Shown here: piece by piece, positions 2,412 through 29,268 of the stretch
Position numbering within the stretch: position 1 is the first letter of the stretch
How the letters are laid out: the number at the start of each line of letters is the position of its first letter
IMG/VR virus record: IMGVR_UViG_3300017917_000940
Location: 1 to 30,445 of that record
Strand: one strand, 5' to 3'
Origin: a virus
DNA: 30,445 nt
Program-made: the position numbers and the translations under genes
The notes under the pieces: model-generated
Database searches by the model: none
Told to the model about the DNA's origin: nothing
Seen by the model: the letters and a program-made list of their open reading frames with translations, nothing else

Positions 2412-2440
2412 TTGACTTTGGTTACAGGTTAGTGTATACT
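2412..2440 (+). promoter_or_regulatory. Sigma-70-type promoter for a leaderless GTG gene
   Basis: TTGACT (2412-2417), exactly 17 bases, TATACT (2435-2440). The -10 is followed by 6 bases and then GTG at 2447, so transcription should start on the start codon. Confidence 0.75.
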
Positions 2441-2446
2441 TTATAT

Positions 2447-3169
2447 GTGGGAAAAATAATTAAGTTTAAAGCATTAAATAAAGAACAATATGATCTGCAA
2501 CTAAAACCAGTTTCAGCTTCATCTTTAATTCCTCAGTGGTGGAAAAATGAAACACCATATCATGTTGATCACATGAATCCAACTGGCGGAAAATTTAGAA
2601 TGTTAGATGGTATTGCCTCAAATGCAACTTTTAAGAAATGCACACCAATGTTAGATGGTTTAACTTCTGGATATATAATTAGTCTTTGGGCTGATGTATT
2701 TGTAGAATGGATTAATGGGGCTCCACAAGTATCATGGAGAACACATAATCCAGTATTTGCTCAACATGGACCATCTTCAGATAGAGTTCCACCACCTCCA
2801 GGATATTCTAATTTTGTATTTAAATATCATAATACGTGGATACCAATAACCCCAAAAGGATATTCTGTTTTAGTTACATCGCCATTTGGATATCAAGATG
2901 CTCCATTTAGATGCATTCCTGCTGTAATAGATTCAGATGTTTCAAAGCTAGATGTTGTTCCACCAATGTGGCTAAAAGATGGCTTTGAAGGCGTTTTAGA
3001 AAAGGGAACACCGTTAATACAAGTAATTCCTTTTAAAAGAGAAGATTGGTTATCAGAAACAGAGTATTTTGATGATAATGAATGGCACAAAAGTATGGAA
3101 AGAAATTTTAATTCAACGTTAATAAATCACTATATTAAAAATGTTTGGTCTAAAAAAACATATAAGTAA
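2447..3169 (+). CDS. Conserved phage protein, 'GYII...QVIPFKR' family, copy 1
   Basis: About 240 residues. Conserved signature: a tryptophan-rich IPQWWKNETP, KKCTPMLDGLTSGYII, ITPKGYSVLV, a PAVIDSD segment, and FEGVLEKGTPLIQVIPFKREDW. The same blocks occur in two tandem genes at 27.9-29.3 kb. I recognise the pattern from hypothetical proteins of large marine phages but know no function. An in-frame GTG exists at 2432, but it lies inside the promoter, so 2447 is chosen. The stop abuts the stop of the converging minus gene with no spacer. Confidence 0.8.
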   Translation: MGKIIKFKALNKEQYDLQLKPVSASSLIPQWWKNETPYHVDHMNPTGGKFRMLDGIASNATFKKCTPMLDGLTSGYIISLWADVFVEWINGAPQVSWRTHNPVFAQHGPSSDRVPPPPGYSNFVFKYHNTWIPITPKGYSVLVTSPFGYQDAPFRCIPAVIDSDVSKLDVVPPMWLKDGFEGVLEKGTPLIQVIPFKREDWLSETEYFDDNEWHKSMERNFNSTLINHYIKNVWSKKTYK

Positions 3170-4509: not shown

Positions 4510-4699
4510 TTTTAAATATTTCTTCTATTTGAGTATTTAATTCATCAATGTTATTTTCTATGGTTTTATTAGATCCCCAAGAAATACTCATTTCCCAACA
4601 CAAAAAATTAAATACAAAATTTGCAGGGTACTCATCAGACTTAGGAGCAAAGATAATTCCAATACCCCAATAGTGACTCTTACCAAACCCAAACGTCAT
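4502..4699 (-). CDS. Hypothetical aromatic-rich protein
   Basis: 65 residues, with a beta-rich aromatic first half (FGFGKSHYWGIGIIF; NFVFNFLCWEMSISWG) and a helical acidic end. It overlaps the deacetylase upstream as ATGA-type coupling. Function unknown. Confidence 0.65.
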   Translation of the reverse strand: MTFGFGKSHYWGIGIIFAPKSDEYPANFVFNFLCWEMSISWGSNKTIENNIDELNTQIEEIFKNG

Positions 4700-5325
4700 T
4701 GCTTTCTCCCATCTACTATTCTAATTATATCAAATTGCTCTGAAAAGTCAATATTCAATATTTTACCTTCCCAACTTTGATTAAATATTCTAATAGATTC
4801 ATCAGACATATATGGCTTATCTGATTGAGTTTTATGCTTTTTTATTGCATTAAATTTTGTTTGATATTCTTTTGAAATATCTATAATAATCTTAGGAGTA
4901 AAATCATATGTGCTAGGCGAACGGTATGTAAATATGCTTACTGGCAACCTTCTAAGGGCTGTTAATGTTATATCATGAAGAAGTTTATGCTCTTGCATGG
5001 TGTCTTTTGAAGAATGAACCAATACAAGGTCTATATTCTTTTTTATAACCATATCTCTAATAGTATCTGATATAGATCTATAATCATTATATGTTATATC
5101 ATTTATATTTCTAAATTTTACCTCAGATCCAGGAATTAATGAAAATGATTCAATAGTTTCCTTCATTCTTTCTTCTTTCCTATTATTAAAATCAAAAGAA
5201 TCTGGAGATGCAATGAAAGCATGTATGTTGGCTCCATCGTTTCGTTGTTTTAATAAAAATCCAAAACAAGAAAATTCTAAATCATCTGGATGAGCCCCAA
5301 TTGCTAATATAGATTTAAAATTCAT
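4696..5325 (-). CDS. PIG-L/LmbE-family deacetylase
   Basis: 209 residues. GAHPDDLE (10-17) is the zinc-binding and catalytic signature of the family; the partner histidine is in HSSKDTMQEH (104-113). Family members remove acetyl groups from N-acetylglucosamine-type sugars. In a phage it may tailor a glycan on the virion or the host surface, together with the 2OG oxygenase three bases upstream and the glycosyltransferase at 21.9 kb; that link is inference. No clear ribosome-binding site, so it is probably translated by reinitiation after the oxygenase. Confidence 0.85.
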   Translation of the reverse strand: MNFKSILAIGAHPDDLEFSCFGFLLKQRNDGANIHAFIASPDSFDFNNRKEERMKETIESFSLIPGSEVKFRNINDITYNDYRSISDTIRDMVIKKNIDLVLVHSSKDTMQEHKLLHDITLTALRRLPVSIFTYRSPSTYDFTPKIIIDISKEYQTKFNAIKKHKTQSDKPYMSDESIRIFNQSWEGKILNIDFSEQFDIIRIVDGRKQ

Positions 5326-5328
5326 TTT

Positions 5329-5811
5329 TTACTTTAAAAGACTAATTGTAAAAAAGTATCTTGTGCCCTTTGTTACTTTGCTGACTCCATGAGGCCACCA
5401 AGATGGAAAACAAATCATATCTGCTTTTTGAGGTTTTATTCTATTTTCTAAACCATCTGGAGCTGTGAAAGTTAGTTCTCCACCATCATAATTATCATTT
5501 AAGTACATTAGAATACCTACTTCTTCTTCTGGCTCTGAATCTATATGAGTATCCATTCCAACTTCCTCGTTATATTTTGCTAAAAGATATCCGTTATATT
5601 TAACAAATTTATTTTGTAATATTTCTAAAGATTTCTGATAGTACTTATCAACAAAATTTTGAAAAATTGGATCATCTAAATCCTGTACCACAACACTTCC
5701 GCCATGTCTTACTTTTACTTTATCGGTATTGCAAAAATATTCTAATCTTTCAATAATTGCTTTGCAATCATCTTCATCCAAAAAATTATTATATATTTTT
5801 ATATCATTCAT
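5329..5811 (-). CDS. 2-oxoglutarate/Fe(II) oxygenase, prolyl-4-hydroxylase type
   Basis: 160 residues, a full-length small P4H-type domain. Iron ligands are His89 and Asp91 (THID) and His141 (WWPHGV); Arg151 follows ten residues later to bind 2-oxoglutarate. The GGELTF strand is typical. Such phage enzymes hydroxylate proteins or other substrates; the collagen-like fibre at 24.4 kb is a possible proline-bearing substrate (inference). The ATG is 6 bases after a TATAAT, so the mRNA should be leaderless. Confidence 0.88.
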   Translation of the reverse strand: MNDIKIYNNFLDEDDCKAIIERLEYFCNTDKVKVRHGGSVVVQDLDDPIFQNFVDKYYQKSLEILQNKFVKYNGYLLAKYNEEVGMDTHIDSEPEEEVGILMYLNDNYDGGELTFTAPDGLENRIKPQKADMICFPSWWPHGVSKVTKGTRYFFTISLLK

Positions 5812-21868: not shown

Positions 21869-22870
21869 ATGTCTGTCTATGTAGCAATTGCCTGTCTTGG
21901 TATAGACGAAGAACTTTCCAAAACAATAAAATCATGTATAAGTCAAGCTGAAAATCCAGATGATATTATAGTAGGAGTATCCATGATTGGAGAGTTTGAA
22001 TTTTACAATAATATTAAAAATATATTTATAAATAATAAAAATGTAAAAATAATATTTAATGAGTATGATGGAAATATTGGTATAGGAAAAGGTAGAAAAT
22101 TAGCCCTTAGTCAATATAACAACGAAGACTATGTAATGCAAATAGACGCACATTCTAGAATGGCTAACCTTTGGGACAGATATCTTATAGATAAATTTAA
22201 TGCAGCAAAAACTATGGTTAATAATAAAAAAATTATTTTAACTGGAACCCCTGCCAGATATTATTATGATAGAAATGAGGATGGAACTTTTACAGAAAAA
22301 TTTTTTGAGCAATATTTAGGTGTAAATATGTGGAGAGAAAAAGAATACTATAAAATGCAAATTATACCAACATGGGGACATACCGACCCACTTTTTATAT
22401 CTCCAGATGTTAAAAATCTTATAAAAACAACTGGATTTGCTCCTGCAGCAAAGGTATGTGCAGCCTTTATTTTTAGTGATAAATTATTTACAATAAATAC
22501 TTTTTTAGAAGAAGACAATGTTTTTTGGGAAGAAGAAATATTTCAATCAATTGAATTTTTAGATAATGGATTTACTCTTTTATTCCCTGGGCCTCATCCA
22601 GTAATAAATCATTTATATACTGGAGATATAGAGTATCCGCCACTTGGAGATAGAGATAACATATATACAGTATATCCAAAAATTGGAAAAGACATTAACG
22701 TTTTAGATAATAAAATAAAAGAAAATTATTTAAAGTATATGAATGATCCAAAAAATAGGAAAAAAATTAGATTCTTTGAAAAATATAATAAATTTTCATT
22801 TAAGCAAGTAATACATAATTTACAAACTCATCCACTTAGCTATGCTAATATAAATAAAAATCCTTTATAG
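21869..22870 (+). CDS. Glycosyltransferase, GlcNAc-transferase-like (GT-A fold)
   Basis: 333 residues. VYVAIACLGIDEELSKTIKS at the start, GNIGIGKGRKLAL, and QIDAHSRMANLWD (metal-binding DxH-type motif) resemble the Skp1-type GlcNAc transferase family (PF11397 pattern, QIDSHxRFxxxWD). An EEDNVFWEEEIFQS block follows. It would transfer a nucleotide-activated sugar to a virion protein, a host glycan or DNA base; which is unknown. Very AT-rich. Leaderless start. Confidence 0.8.
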   Translation: MSVYVAIACLGIDEELSKTIKSCISQAENPDDIIVGVSMIGEFEFYNNIKNIFINNKNVKIIFNEYDGNIGIGKGRKLALSQYNNEDYVMQIDAHSRMANLWDRYLIDKFNAAKTMVNNKKIILTGTPARYYYDRNEDGTFTEKFFEQYLGVNMWREKEYYKMQIIPTWGHTDPLFISPDVKNLIKTTGFAPAAKVCAAFIFSDKLFTINTFLEEDNVFWEEEIFQSIEFLDNGFTLLFPGPHPVINHLYTGDIEYPPLGDRDNIYTVYPKIGKDINVLDNKIKENYLKYMNDPKNRKKIRFFEKYNKFSFKQVIHNLQTHPLSYANINKNPL

Positions 22871-24441: not shown

Positions 24442-25140
24442 ATGGCCAAGTCAATGGATTTTCCAGGGAGTAGTAAAAAGAAATACTCATCTATAACATC
24501 ATCATCTATTAATGAAATACCAGAGCCAATTCTTATTCCAGTAGTTGGACCACAAGGACCTAAAGGTGATCCTGGAAAAGATGGCTTGCAAGGTCCTCAA
24601 GGAATACCTGGTCCAATTGGTCCAAAAGGTGATAAAGGAAAAGATGGCAAGGATTATGAATCTGCTTCTGGTCAAATACCTGGATGGGCTTATTATTATT
24701 CAAAAAATAAAAATATTATAGATTTAGGTCCAACTAAAGGAGATGATGGTTGGGTATATATTGGTTTTAAAAAAGATACAGTTTTAAAAAATGAAACATA
24801 TTTACCAAAGGGATCATCTAGTTTGTGGAATAGCGATGGAAATAAAATAAATTTTAGAGCATTAGAAACAGGCGCAATAGTTAATGTTAGATATGATATT
24901 GGTATTGAAACCTACAGTAATAATACAGAGTTTTGGTTTAGGACCTTATATCCTCAATCTCTTAAATATACCCTATCATATTTAGGATCATTAAAATATC
25001 AGTATGAATATGATTTGTCGGTACTACAAACAATTTTTATAGAAGATAGATTTATATTAACTGATGGTGGAGTTCCACAGGTTAGAGCAGATAATACATC
25101 ATCTATATACTTAAAAGGAGTATATATCTCTGTTTTATAA
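24442..25140 (+). CDS. Collagen-like tail fibre protein
   Basis: 232 residues. Residues 36-71 are 12 unbroken Gly-X-Y triplets (GPQGPKGDPGKDG...), which should form a trimeric triple helix, between a serine-rich N-terminus and a beta-rich C-terminal domain ending YLKGVYISVL. Typical of phage fibres and spikes. Y-position residues are mainly Lys, Asp, Gln and Pro; prolines could be substrates of the P4H-type enzyme at 5.3 kb. Ribosome-binding site AAGGAG. Confidence 0.85.
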   Translation: MAKSMDFPGSSKKKYSSITSSSINEIPEPILIPVVGPQGPKGDPGKDGLQGPQGIPGPIGPKGDKGKDGKDYESASGQIPGWAYYYSKNKNIIDLGPTKGDDGWVYIGFKKDTVLKNETYLPKGSSSLWNSDGNKINFRALETGAIVNVRYDIGIETYSNNTEFWFRTLYPQSLKYTLSYLGSLKYQYEYDLSVLQTIFIEDRFILTDGGVPQVRADNTSSIYLKGVYISVL

Positions 25141-25152
25141 CTAATATTATGT

Positions 25153-25158
25153 TATAAT
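25153..25158 (+). promoter_or_regulatory. -10 of duplicated cassette, copy 1
   Basis: TGT-TATAAT in the context ATATTATGTTATAATT, followed by a leader with GAGGAGG. The same context precedes copy 2. Confidence 0.55.
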
Positions 25159-25180
25159 TTACCAGAGGAGGTAGTAAATA

Positions 25181-25489
25181 ATGGCTACAGTCACAAGTAA
25201 GACCCTTTTTCGTGGTGCAGCAACTACTAATACAGCAACAACTCTTTATACTGTTCCTTCTGCTACTACAGCAGTTGTTACAAATATTGCAGTAACTAAT
25301 ACAGGATCTTCAGATTATACTTTTACACTGTCTTTAAACAATGTTGCTTTACACACAACTACAGCAGTTCTTGCTAATTCAACTGCATATATTGATTGCA
25401 AACAGGTTTTAGATGCTACAAACACTATCAAGGGTGGAGCTTCTAATACCGCAGTTAACTTTCATATAAGTGGAGTGGAGATAGCGTAA
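25181..25489 (+). CDS. Small beta virion protein, cassette copy 1 gene A
   Basis: 102 residues, alanine/threonine-rich with Ig-like beta pattern (AVVTNIAVTNTGSSDYTFTL). About five residues differ from the copy at 26466, yet many codons differ synonymously, so the protein has been kept under selection. Ends by overlapping the next ATG. Confidence 0.75.
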   Translation: MATVTSKTLFRGAATTNTATTLYTVPSATTAVVTNIAVTNTGSSDYTFTLSLNNVALHTTTAVLANSTAYIDCKQVLDATNTIKGGASNTAVNFHISGVEIA

Positions 25490-26106
25490 TGGGTATTTCA
25501 ACATTTCCAAATATAGTAAGTCCAATCAAATCAATTCAAAGAGGTACAGCGTCTGCTGCAGGAAATATTACAATATCTGCTGTTAATTTATCAAAAACAA
25601 TGGTTAATTCATTTAGCACAAGCTCAGATGGCACTGTAGCAGCTTCTGGAACAATAGCATCATTTACTGGAACTGCAGCATCATCAACTATTTATGTAGA
25701 TGGTTACTCTGGATCAGGTGTTGGATTTTCTGCTATAGCTCCAAATCCAATAGTAACTGGTAATTATAATGCTCCAAATATTGCATCATATAACGTATCA
25801 AATGCATCATATAACTCTCCAACTCAATATTTTACAAGATATGCAGCTCCATATAATGCTCCAACATTATATTATAATACACCATATGCATCATCATACA
25901 ATGTTCCAACTCCAGTATATGCAAACAATTTGCCAGCGTCTTCTGGAAATATGACACAAAATTCACAAGCATTAAATTTATCATCAACAAATATTTCTGG
26001 TGGATCAAATAATTTAGTTTCGGCTAACTATGGAGTTTACTTATCAAATTCAACTACATTGGTTGCAACTGGACCTTGCAGATATGAAGTTGTTGAATAT
26101 TATTAG
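25489..26106 (+). CDS. Repeat-bearing fibre-like protein, cassette copy 1 gene B
   Basis: 205 residues. Conserved first part (MGISTFPNIVSPIKSIQRG) and conserved end (NMTQNSQ...ISGGS...ATGPCRYEV, then EYY), between which lies a YNxPN/YNAPT repeat zone (about residues 88-147). The ATGPCRYEV-type end is common in phage fibre proteins. Probably virion surface or adhesion; variable centre suggests host-range change. Confidence 0.75.
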   Translation: MGISTFPNIVSPIKSIQRGTASAAGNITISAVNLSKTMVNSFSTSSDGTVAASGTIASFTGTAASSTIYVDGYSGSGVGFSAIAPNPIVTGNYNAPNIASYNVSNASYNSPTQYFTRYAAPYNAPTLYYNTPYASSYNVPTPVYANNLPASSGNMTQNSQALNLSSTNISGGSNNLVSANYGVYLSNSTTLVATGPCRYEVVEYY

Positions 26107-26114
26107 GATGAATA

Positions 26115-26423
26115 ATGTATAACTATATACAATTAAAAGATGGAGTAGCATTTTCATATATAACTACTCCATCCGAAATACAAGAATCTGTTAATATTAT
26201 TAAGGTAGATGTTAATTCAGAACATTTAATTGGAATGAAATATGAAAATGGTAATTTTATAGAGGCTCCAATAACTAAATATGCTATTTTAGATAATGAT
26301 ATAGTTGTATCTATTAAAGAAACTGTTTTTTCATCAGATATAAAAGATAACAAAATCATAAATAATAATGATGTACAGGTTTTATGGAGATGGGATGGAT
26401 CTCAGTTCATACCGCCAGCATAA
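26115..26423 (+). CDS. Cassette copy 1 gene C
   Basis: 102 residues. MYNYIQLKDGVAFSYITTPS and a final VLWRWDGSQFIPPA; the tail chaperone- or attachment-like pattern 'QLKDGVxFAxI' occurs again in copy 2. Ten bases after gene B. Function unknown, perhaps assembly of its partner fibre. Confidence 0.7.
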   Translation: MYNYIQLKDGVAFSYITTPSEIQESVNIIKVDVNSEHLIGMKYENGNFIEAPITKYAILDNDIVVSIKETVFSSDIKDNKIINNNDVQVLWRWDGSQFIPPA

Positions 26424-26436
26424 TACAATATTATGT

Positions 26437-26442
26437 TATAAT
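26437..26442 (+). promoter_or_regulatory. -10 of duplicated cassette, copy 2
   Basis: TGT-TATAAT within ATATTATGTTATAATT, then AGGAGG and ATG as in copy 1. The promoter was duplicated with the genes. Confidence 0.55.
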
Positions 26443-26465
26443 TCAATACTAGGAGGTAGTAAATA

Positions 26466-26774
26466 ATGGCTACAGTAACCAGCAAGACCCTTTTTCGTGG
26501 AGCAGCCACAACAAATACTGCTACAACTCTATATACAGTTCCATCAGCAACTAGTGCTGTAGTTACAAATATTGCTGTAACTAATACAGGATCTTCAGAT
26601 TATACTTTTACCTTGTCATTAAATAACGTTTCGTTACATACTACCACCACAGTGTTAGCAAACTCTACAGCATATATTGACTGTAAGCAAGTATTGTCTG
26701 CTACAGAAACTATTAAAGGTGGAGCTTCAAATACCGCAGTTAATTTCCACATTAGCGGAGTGGAGATAGCGTAA
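26466..26774 (+). CDS. Small beta virion protein, cassette copy 2 gene A
   Basis: 102 residues, near-identical to copy 1 (changes such as SATTAV to SATSAV, NNVALHTTTAV to NNVSLHTTTTV, LDATNT to LSATET). Same overlap with gene B. Confidence 0.75.
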   Translation: MATVTSKTLFRGAATTNTATTLYTVPSATSAVVTNIAVTNTGSSDYTFTLSLNNVSLHTTTTVLANSTAYIDCKQVLSATETIKGGASNTAVNFHISGVEIA

Positions 26775-27460
26775 TGGGTATTTCAACATTTCCAAGCTTT
26801 GTTAGTCCAGTTAAATCAATTCAACGGGGTATTGCAGCAGCAGCAGGAGATATAACAATATCATCTGTAAATACATTAAAAACAATAACCAATTCTTTTC
26901 CAACAGCAGCGGATGGAACCGTAGCAGCGACTGGCACAGTAAATGCTGCAACAGGAACCGCTGGTCAATCTAATATTTATGTAACTGGATACTCTGGTTC
27001 TGGTGTAGGATTTTCAATAGAAGCTCCAACTCCAGTTTTTACAGGAAATTATAATACTCCAAATATTGCAAATTATAATATTCCAAATATTACATCTTAT
27101 AATTCTCCTAATGCAAATATTAGCGGATATAATGCTCCTAACTATTTAAGCCAGACAAGATATATAGTATATTATAATGCTCCTAGTGCTATCATAAGTG
27201 GATATAATGCACCTACTGGAGCAACATATAATTCAACTGCTGTAGCTGCATACAATGCAGCATTTCCAGTATATGCTAATACTCTGGCATCCTCTTCTGG
27301 CAATATGACACAAAATAGTCAATCCATTAACTTAAATGCAACAAATATCAGTGGAGGATCAACTAATCTTTTTGCAGGAGCATATGGAATATATCTTAAA
27401 AATTCTACAACAATCACAGCTACTGGCCCATGTCGGTATGAAGTGATAGAATACTATTAA
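26774..27460 (+). CDS. Repeat-bearing fibre-like protein, cassette copy 2 gene B
   Basis: 228 residues, 23 more than copy 1. The ends match copy 1, but the middle has a longer repeat zone with SGYNAPN/SGYNAPT units not found in copy 1. Expansion and turnover of the repeats is the main difference. Confidence 0.75.
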   Translation: MGISTFPSFVSPVKSIQRGIAAAAGDITISSVNTLKTITNSFPTAADGTVAATGTVNAATGTAGQSNIYVTGYSGSGVGFSIEAPTPVFTGNYNTPNIANYNIPNITSYNSPNANISGYNAPNYLSQTRYIVYYNAPSAIISGYNAPTGATYNSTAVAAYNAAFPVYANTLASSSGNMTQNSQSINLNATNISGGSTNLFAGAYGIYLKNSTTITATGPCRYEVIEYY

Positions 27461-27472
27461 AAGGAGAAAAAA

Positions 27473-27802
27473 ATGAAGCATTATGTTCAGTTAAAAGATG
27501 GAGTCGGATTTGCAACAATAAGTTCAGATAAAGCAATCGAAATATCTGAGTCTATAATTGAAGTTCAAGATAATCCAGAACAATTTTTAAATAAAAAATA
27601 TAATGGATCAACATTTTTAGATGGTGAATTTATTAGATATGCTATAGTTGATTCAGATAATACAATTATTGATATTCGTAAAACATATTTTTTGTCTGAT
27701 ATTGAAAAAAATAATGGTGTTGAAATTAACAATGACAATGTTAAAATTCTATGGAAGTGGAATGGAAAGCATGGATCAGAAAAAGAATTTACTGCTCAAT
27801 AG
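27473..27802 (+). CDS. Cassette copy 2 gene C
   Basis: 109 residues, MKHYVQLKDGVGFATISSDK ... VKILWKWNGKHGSEKEFTAQ. Much more diverged from copy 1 than gene A, roughly as diverged as gene B's centre. Ribosome-binding site AAGGAG. Confidence 0.7.
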   Translation: MKHYVQLKDGVGFATISSDKAIEISESIIEVQDNPEQFLNKKYNGSTFLDGEFIRYAIVDSDNTIIDIRKTYFLSDIEKNNGVEINNDNVKILWKWNGKHGSEKEFTAQ

Positions 27803-27854: not shown

Positions 27855-28556
27855 ATGGATAAGTCTATAGTTTTTACAAAAATGAAAGACGTTGCTGATA
27901 TATATTATCCAAAACCAGCTTCATCAATAATTCCAGAATGGTATAAAAAAACTAAACCATATAATAATGAAAGTGGAAAAAAAGAATTAGATGCTAACTA
28001 TAGTGTTCCTGCAACCATTAAAAAATGTATTCCAGTTTTAGATTCATTAAGTACTGGGTATATTATTCCTACATACTGTGATCTTTGGATTAAAAAAAAT
28101 GAACATGGAGATATTGTCTATATAACATCACATGAACTCAATATAGAATTTCATCCAGTAATGCAGGCACCATATCATCCAAAAATGAATCAACATCCAT
28201 ATCCTAAATGGATTAATCCTTGGGGTATTAAAACTCCAAAAGGATATTCTTGTTTGTTTATTCCACCAGTACACGGCGGAAATAAATTTTTTACCATAGC
28301 TGAAGGTGTTGTAGATACTGATACATATAGTGCTCCAGTTAATTTCCCCTTTGTTTTGAATGATACAAACTTTGAGGGTTTAATTCCAGCTGGTACTCCA
28401 ATGGTTCAAGTGATTCCATTTAAAAGAGATTCATGGACTATGCAAATAGGCTCTGAGCTAGATACTAAAAAAAATAATGACGTAATAAATAAATTACAAA
28501 GTGTATTTTTTGACAGATATAAAAATCTATTTTGGAATAAGAAAAGGTATAAATAA
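27855..28556 (+). CDS. 'GYII...QVIPFKR' family protein, copy 2
   Basis: 233 residues. Blocks IIPEWYKKTKP, IKKCIPVLDSLSTGYIIP, IKTPKGYSCLF, GVVDTD and FEGLIPAGTPMVQVIPFKRDSW align in order with the gene at 2447. Both copies end in a KxRYK/KKTYK-type basic tail. Function unknown. Confidence 0.8.
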   Translation: MDKSIVFTKMKDVADIYYPKPASSIIPEWYKKTKPYNNESGKKELDANYSVPATIKKCIPVLDSLSTGYIIPTYCDLWIKKNEHGDIVYITSHELNIEFHPVMQAPYHPKMNQHPYPKWINPWGIKTPKGYSCLFIPPVHGGNKFFTIAEGVVDTDTYSAPVNFPFVLNDTNFEGLIPAGTPMVQVIPFKRDSWTMQIGSELDTKKNNDVINKLQSVFFDRYKNLFWNKKRYK

Positions 28557-28557
28557 A

Positions 28558-29268
28558 ATGTTTAATTATAAAAAAATAAAGAAAAATATTTTAAAACATG
28601 CTCCACTTAATGATAATTTTCCAAATGTTATTCCTGCTAAACGTGTAACGCCAGATTGGTATAAAGATGCAACTAAGTTGTCTGATGGAAATAAAGAAAT
28701 AAAAAACTTACCAGCAAAACTTGGTTTTAAATATTGTTCTCCATTTGGTGATAGTTTATTATCTGGATATGTGATACCTTTAGCAGTAGATATAGCTGTT
28801 GAGCAGACTGAGGGTGGACCATCAATATCTTGGTCAGATAGTGATAATAAATATTTAGACTTAAGGCCAACAGAATCAAATCCAACCTTGCCAACACCAA
28901 ATGGGTATGCACCATTACATTTTACTTGGCTAACTCAGCATATGATTAAGATTCCAAAAGGATATAGCGCATTAATAACACATCCACTTAACCGCTTTGA
29001 TTTACCATTTATTACTTTGAGTGGAATAATTGATGGAGAGTTTGTATTACATAATGGAAATATTCCAGTTTATTTTAACACTAAATTTGAGGGTATTATT
29101 AAATCTGGTACACCAATTATTCAAGTTATTCCATTTAAACGAGAATCGTGGTCAAGCGAGATAGATAAAGAAATACTTATGGATGGTTTTAATAATGGTA
29201 AAAAAAGTAAAATGTCTGCATTTGGATGGTATAAGCAGTCTCACTGGCATAAAAAAAATTATGAATAA
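28558..29268 (+). CDS. 'GYII...QVIPFKR' family protein, copy 3
   Basis: 236 residues. VTPDWYKDATK, KYCSPFGDSLLSGYVIPL, IKIPKGYSALI, SGIIDGEF and FEGIIKSGTPIIQVIPFKRESW. The start at 28501 is rejected as it lies inside copy 2; ATG 28558 follows copy 2's stop by one base. Adjacent copies suggest tandem duplication, with copy 1 moved or retained across the genome. Confidence 0.8.
   Translation: MFNYKKIKKNILKHAPLNDNFPNVIPAKRVTPDWYKDATKLSDGNKEIKNLPAKLGFKYCSPFGDSLLSGYVIPLAVDIAVEQTEGGPSISWSDSDNKYLDLRPTESNPTLPTPNGYAPLHFTWLTQHMIKIPKGYSALITHPLNRFDLPFITLSGIIDGEFVLHNGNIPVYFNTKFEGIIKSGTPIIQVIPFKRESWSSEIDKEILMDGFNNGKKSKMSAFGWYKQSHWHKKNYE

Follow-up and report, generated by a model that had tools for sequence, protein, structure and literature searches.

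The closest known mechanism to the arrangement described here is the adapter and conserved N-terminal peptide of the K1-5 and KP32 phages, as in K1-5 gp37 with gp46/gp47 and in the KP32, KP34, and G7C types (PMC6872550). As in those systems, there is here a constant candidate docking protein (A) accompanied by different presumptive host-binding proteins (B) that have only a short N-terminal peptide in common, and several tips may be available to one virus. The peptide is 7, 11, or 29 residues long in those systems and about 8 residues here. However, K1-5-type proteins dock on a T4 gp10-like domain and no such domain was found for A among the Pfam, PHROG, and Foldseek matches listed, which places A outside that system as defined. 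The locus also differs in that the putative socket and plug are encoded by adjacent, usually overlapping genes, in that there are two socket types and two tag types, and in that B is a small protein in which no enzyme domain was identified.

Three other systems are comparable in part. Glycine-rich adhesins and brush domains include the T-even gp38 type, the glycine-rich domain of Pam3 gp24 (PMC9608196), and the mycobacteriophage brush domains (cited in PMC13243795). Many alternative partners of A and of its paralogue A' are likewise glycine-rich and at the same gene position, but the two B proteins studied here (B1 and B2) contain 8-9% Gly, are built on a beta scaffold that bears a YNxP-rich insert, and do not qualify as members of this class. 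The Pam3 tail fibre gp24 is associated with the chaperone gp25 (PMC9608196), and here too a fibre-type gene is followed by a small gene, C, specific to that fibre type; unlike the tail fibre assembly proteins, C has no Pfam tail-fibre-assembly match, and its role is suggested by co-occurrence. The branched tailspike complexes of the Ackermannviridae (PMC11414711) resemble the cassette in having several receptor-binding genes per genome, conserved N-terminal attachment parts, and gain and loss by recombination. Their tailspikes are much larger and enzymatic, however, and the likeness implies no sequence kinship.

The DNA analysed, referred to as the window, is a viral record, linear and 30,445 bases long. 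Within it a promoter-A-B-C cassette is present twice, back to back, at 25150-26423 and 26434-27802, each copy having the order TATAAT box, Shine-Dalgarno sequence, A, B, C. The features of the region are as follows:

24442..25140, + strand: collagen-like tail-fibre-type protein, upstream neighbour of the cassettes
25150-25158, + strand: cassette 1 promoter-like TGTTATAAT, with ribosome-binding site AGGAGG at 25166-25171, read in the sequence
25181..25489, + strand: A1, 102 aa, proposed tail socket/adaptor; PHROG 1276; eight-stranded beta-sandwich
25489..26106, + strand: B1, 205 aa, sandwich-type exchangeable partner
25489..25512, + strand: B1 N-terminal tag MGISTFPN, proposed docking peptide (tag rule)
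25741..25938, + strand: B1 variable YNxP-rich insert, about residues 85-150
26115..26423, + strand: C1, 102 aa, proposed dedicated folding/accessory partner of sandwich-type B
26434-26442, + strand: cassette 2 promoter-like TGTTATAAT, with ribosome-binding site AGGAGG at 26451-26456
26466..26774, + strand: A2, 102 aa, 95% identical to A1
26774..27460, + strand: B2, 228 aa
26774..26797, + strand: B2 N-terminal tag MGISTFPS (tag rule)
27026..27298, + strand: B2 variable YNxP-rich insert, about residues 85-175, with 24-nt repeat units
27473..27802, + strand: C2, 109 aa

The ORFs match exactly the doubled promoter-A-B-C unit described in the initial annotation, with all six genes intact, and the duplication is confirmed by DNA repeat families with a spacing of 1285 that start at 25166 and 26451. 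The TGTTATAAT sequence sits 31-32 nt 5' of the ATG of both A genes, and AGGAGG is also upstream of both. A TATAAT-like box approximately 30 nt 5' of A and the Shine-Dalgarno sequence AGGAGGTAGTAA are kept in relatives (for example L003, L062, L064, L083-L091, L100, L104, L132, and L141). Since a plain sigma-70 scan of the cassette region gave hits that were not above those of shuffles, the promoter call depends on conservation in relatives; the promoter put forward in the initial annotation stands on that conservation.

Several other genes in the window were noted. PHROG 7084, a family of unknown function, is present three times (2432-3169, 27855-28556, and 28558-29268), two of the copies following directly 3' of the cassettes and the third lying 25 kb from them. 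The copy at 27855 has relatives in haloarchaeal tailed viruses (about 31-34% identity in the listed matches) and in cyanophages. A PIG-L deacetylase-like gene (4699-5325), a 2OG-Fe(II) oxygenase-like gene (5329-5811), and a GlcNAc-type glycosyltransferase gene (21872-22867) are possible surface- or DNA-modifying enzymes.

The two copies of the cassette have diverged unequally. A1 and A2 are identical in 97 of 102 residues and in 82% of bases, with silent differences in 46 codons and five changes of residue, in line with the earlier description of proteins about 95% identical encoded by DNA with many silent changes. By the NG86 method dN is 0.039 and dS 1.19, giving a dN/dS near 0.03, and A is under purifying selection between the copies. 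B had been described as keeping its ends and differing in its centre, at 205 versus 228 aa, and this holds: the first 90 residues of B1 and B2 are 69% identical (dS 0.85) and the last 75 are 65% identical (dS 1.1). C had been called diverged, and C1 and C2 are indeed only 39% identical (dS 0.97). Nei-Gojobori dS values for A, B, and C are 1.19, 0.93, and 0.97, and this similarity, at around 1, points to a single old duplication in which the three proteins were constrained unequally, and not to a recent event. A recent duplication of A, or gene conversion, was considered and dropped because dS is alike in the three genes. B1 and B2 group as sisters (93/90) in a tree built with their relatives. 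C1 and C2 are ungrouped in theirs, yet a clade of the two is not rejected (AU p 0.415), and separate origins of C1 and C2 were therefore also dropped.

A1 and A2 match PHROG 1276 (E 1.2e-5 and 7.2e-6), as do 68 of the 69 aligned A and A' members. This family had no assigned function, and its profile has 325 positions, of which A matches only the first third, as a stand-alone protein. Some A members match the tail-fibre PHROGs 693 and 11338. The AlphaFold2 model of A, from an alignment made without three database rows, is an eight-stranded beta-sandwich with a mean pLDDT of 97. The fold recurs in many Caudoviricetes proteins, including a virion protein (S-SCSM1), a virion structural protein (S-TIM5), and a tail fiber-like protein (S-CAM1), where the labels are database names. 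The virion proteome of S-SCSM1 by mass spectrometry has been reported (PMC9602691), in a list that may or may not include the A-fold match. Similarity of the fold to PDB entries is weak and generic, and includes the capsid proteins 4dmi and 1wce. A sequence search of solved structures gave no credible match for A, B, or C, and in Pfam each of the three is without an identifying family.

A search of viral contigs with A reported 295 relatives, of which 80 were kept; direct searches with B and C added further contigs, and the comparison overall covers about 150 related loci. A occurs in freshwater viral contigs and Streptomyces phages, and A', a paralogue of the 109-aa type that separates from A once on the A tree, occurs in the tail-gene region of cultured Planktophila and Pontimonas phages. 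B and C were searched for in annotated phages and none was found. A single-protein scan of bacterial and archaeal genomes gave pattern matches with no confirmed relative of A, the complete cassette matched nothing in a nucleotide search of phages, and the exact B-start pattern had no match in viral contigs, so there is among them no near-identical second virus in which turnover of the repeats could be seen.

The claim that A is constant and B changeable is borne out across the relatives. A is 60-80% identical in many of them, while the adjoining gene, which in nearly all loci begins on the A stop or no more than a few bases from it, is swapped for unrelated bodies. With the first 12 residues set aside, the bodies beside A form 57 clusters without detected mutual similarity, a figure in which low-complexity masking splits some glycine-rich families. 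They include the sandwich type of the window, glycine-rich and collagen-like proteins, and others. For example, A in L003 is 80% identical, yet its B is glycine-rich, and L160 has the same flank with a B of another type.

Despite this exchange, the otherwise unrelated partners of A share a short N-terminal peptide. Their first eight residues carry the tag M[GA]xxx[FYIV]P, which is not found after A', the partners of which tend to start MA[VI]SxL instead. With duplicates removed, the Pro7 tag is present in 71 of 85 A partners, those of the Streptomyces phages included, and in 0 of 17 A' partners (p 3e-11); per body cluster it is present in 30 of 39 for A and 0 of 21 for A' (p 4e-9). Its background in other ORFs is 4.8%. 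The exceptions are the 14 of 85 A partners without the tag, including the sandwich-type B of L101, which has a non-Pro7 tag. As there is a single split between A and A' on the A tree, the large Fisher values overstate independence, and the tag was checked on trees of homologous bodies that change partner. Six body families are found with both A and A', with around 12 partner changes on the body trees by parsimony. Among the supported independent contrasts, pooled by the author, the tag goes with the partner in approximately 6-7, goes against it in 0, and shows no difference in 1-2; only these contrasts on the body trees, few as they are, count as independent. There are 21 loci with separate A and A' cassettes, each with its own B. 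Seven loci have related bodies in both of their cassettes (L039, L059, L072, L074, L077, L081, and L082), and in six of these the tags differ as expected, the exception being L082. From these sequence comparisons we infer that A may be a tail socket, the tag its plug, and B the changeable tip.

In the model of B1, residues 11-43 and 181-205 are mostly above pLDDT 90 and the centre is weak, with low confidence, so that the repeat zone is an insertion between the halves of a small beta domain. The B model had no match in the PDB by Foldseek. The ends are common to members of the B family, being of the KSIQRG type at the N-terminus and the C-x-[WY]-[EQ]-V type at the C-terminus. The centres are rich in YNxP: B1 has 5 occurrences and B2 has 6, where shuffles matched for composition gave 0.30 and 0.20, and the observed count was reached in 0 of 20,000 shuffles. 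TRF identified 24-nt units in B2 at 27046-27112 and 27202-27259. Among the close relatives aligned, no B has the YNxPN form, and elsewhere the pattern is found in four contigs, with 0 homologous to B. In L154 (199-5980, minus strand) there are long proteins of period-8 YN/GN repeats on a scaffold unrelated to B, some of which end in poly-proline and poly-glycine.

The initial annotation would have been contradicted by a lack of variation among relatives; B varies among them in both copy number (1, 2, or 4) and centre length. A census of 47 complete modules, made by contig with duplicate loci removed by hand, identified 13 A-B-C, 10 A-A-B-C or A...A'-B-C, 4 A-B-B-C, and 19 A-B-B-B-B-C arrangements. 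The A-B-C-A-B-C arrangement is present in the window only; the relatives vary the number of B copies instead. In L108-L127 (for example L123, 5290-7501), four divergent compact B genes are between one A and one C, and these arrays look as if four different tips used one socket gene. The proposed diversifying repeat zone is real as divergence between the copies and among relatives; ongoing diversification would be a further supposition. B1 and B2 may plausibly be alternative receptor-binding fibres, and nothing was found in favour of the suggestion that they are decoys.

All 32 sandwich-type B, and 1 of 83 other B, have a gene of the C family downstream. The lone case is L048, which has a sandwich-type B further downstream. 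This almost exclusive association makes C specific to that body type, and C is perhaps its dedicated folding partner, a guess drawn from the likeness to Pam3 gp25 (PMC9608196). A Pfam search over 32 C members gave no match to a tail-fibre-assembly or known chaperone family; the similarity of C to PHROG 14370 is marginal, and its match to a PHROG named tail fiber protein is at chance level (E 0.43).

In annotated relatives, A and A' are associated with tail genes. Three Streptomyces phages, Saftant, Joe, and Diane, have the A homologue behind the tape measure gene and a pair of minor tail genes. The gene after A overlaps it and is annotated as a minor tail protein in two of the three, Saftant and Diane. 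The partners in Saftant, Joe, and Diane start MGFNVIPAP, MGFNVVPAP, or MGFSVIPEP, with collagen repeats beyond this start in Saftant and Joe. A' of the Pontimonas phage phiPsal1, annotated as a putative virion structural protein, is after the tape measure and a putative tail fibre. The Planktophila phages E7 and F5 encode a 559-aa tail-fibre protein (PHROG 38058), after which come A' and two glycine-rich proteins; three further proteins were seen in E7, where Gly_rich_2 is also found. The two glycine-rich B-type genes after A' (L157/L158, 9001-11057) look alike in both phages. Even so, a hypervariable 5-kb metagenomic island, possibly for host recognition, has been described for E7 and F5; it takes in a portion of the tail fibre along with two collagen-like and three DUF2541 proteins (PMC10202952). 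Judging from gene order and number, this island probably corresponds to the A' stretch. The DUF2541 identity of the E7 proteins was dropped, there being no Pfam match.

The neighbour of the cassettes in the window is a collagen-like fibre-type gene, and relatives share it, with three further genes between it and A. These three (about 117, 187, and 155 aa, at 5912-7315 in L083) are absent from the window at 25140-25181. In many relatives the gene directly 5' of A ends -MGA or -MGAx. Overall, a predicted tail or fibre role for the cassette is supported by synteny, family, and fold. In other relatives of the window, the place of A-B-C between the same flanking genes holds PASTA-domain proteins (L166, 11216-12058; L167, 8496-9353; L169, 12266-14281), with a match of 2.5e-12 in L169 and weaker matches in L166 and L167. 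PASTA domains bind peptidoglycan, and a putative cell-wall-binding module at this place fits a host-surface locus.

The reading we prefer, at a probability of roughly 0.6, is that the cassette is a modular tail-tip unit of socket A, plug-bearing exchangeable B, and partner C. A would be a small beta-sandwich that sits on the tail and serves as a socket; B would fit into it by the N-terminal plug and would carry an exchangeable body. The body here may be a compact beta scaffold, the halves of which flank the long variable YNxP insert, and the insert would be displayed outwards, most likely touching the host surface. C would be a small partner devoted to the sandwich-type body, probably for its folding. 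The whole unit, with its promoter, was duplicated long ago in this lineage. As A and the plugs have stayed constant and the inserts and C have diverged, one virus could mount two different tips on identical sockets.

Were the module instead a decoration of the capsid, A would be a beta-sandwich that binds the capsid and B would be a head fibre, serving surface adhesion or particle stability. A is a generic beta-sandwich with capsid proteins among its weak PDB matches, and annotations as virion structural protein do not name the tail, but the placement of A in Streptomyces phages, with the tape measure gene and two minor tail genes ahead of it (and a minor tail gene following in Saftant and Diane), that of A' behind a tape measure and putative tail fibre in phiPsal1 and behind the 559-aa tail-fibre protein in E7 and F5, and the matches of some A members to tail-fibre PHROGs make this unlikely. 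We regard as similarly improbable that the second cassette is a matter of dosage or a passive relic, both copies doing the same job while B and C drift under weak constraint. The nearly identical A copies, the same promoter and Shine-Dalgarno layout, and the conserved ends of B would agree with it; six intact ORFs at a dS near 1, however, speak of long maintenance, and relatives that multiply B alone with divergent copies (ABBC in 4 contigs, ABBBBC in 19), as well as the 21 loci with separate A and A' cassettes, fit diversity better.

Diversity might also be generated actively in the centre of B by a targeted mechanism, either a diversity-generating retroelement or programmed repeat recombination. 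Although the insert differs strongly in length and sequence between copies and relatives, and its 24-nt units could recombine, no reverse transcriptase was recognised among the longer window ORFs examined, which have other assignments, and no template repeat was noticed. The record is a fragment, and a reverse transcriptase may lie beyond it; we hold this mechanism to be very unlikely. Less probable still is that B and C merely travel with A and have no place in the virion, acting for instance as secreted decoys or superinfection factors. The lack of an identifying family for C would allow it, but the B start overlaps or abuts the A stop in nearly all loci and bears an A-specific N-terminal tag, and the syntenic partners are annotated as minor tail proteins in Saftant and Diane, with collagen repeats in Saftant.

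More broadly, and tentatively, at somewhat under even odds, A and A' with their matching tags may form a plug-and-socket code, not described before, that is used by tailed phages infecting freshwater and soil bacteria. Sockets of at least two specificities would accept any body with the right eight-residue plug, so that tips could be swapped or stacked, and the virus of the window would hold two tips on the same socket type. If the socket and plug reading is true, it gives a role to PHROG 1276, a phage family so far without one. The host-contacting gene of uncultured phages could then be found by a simple rule, as the gene overlapping A, even where it resembles nothing known, and tip exchange would be testable with two small proteins. 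Because phages of Planktophila, Pontimonas, and Streptomyces with A or A' are in culture, the idea can be put to the test.
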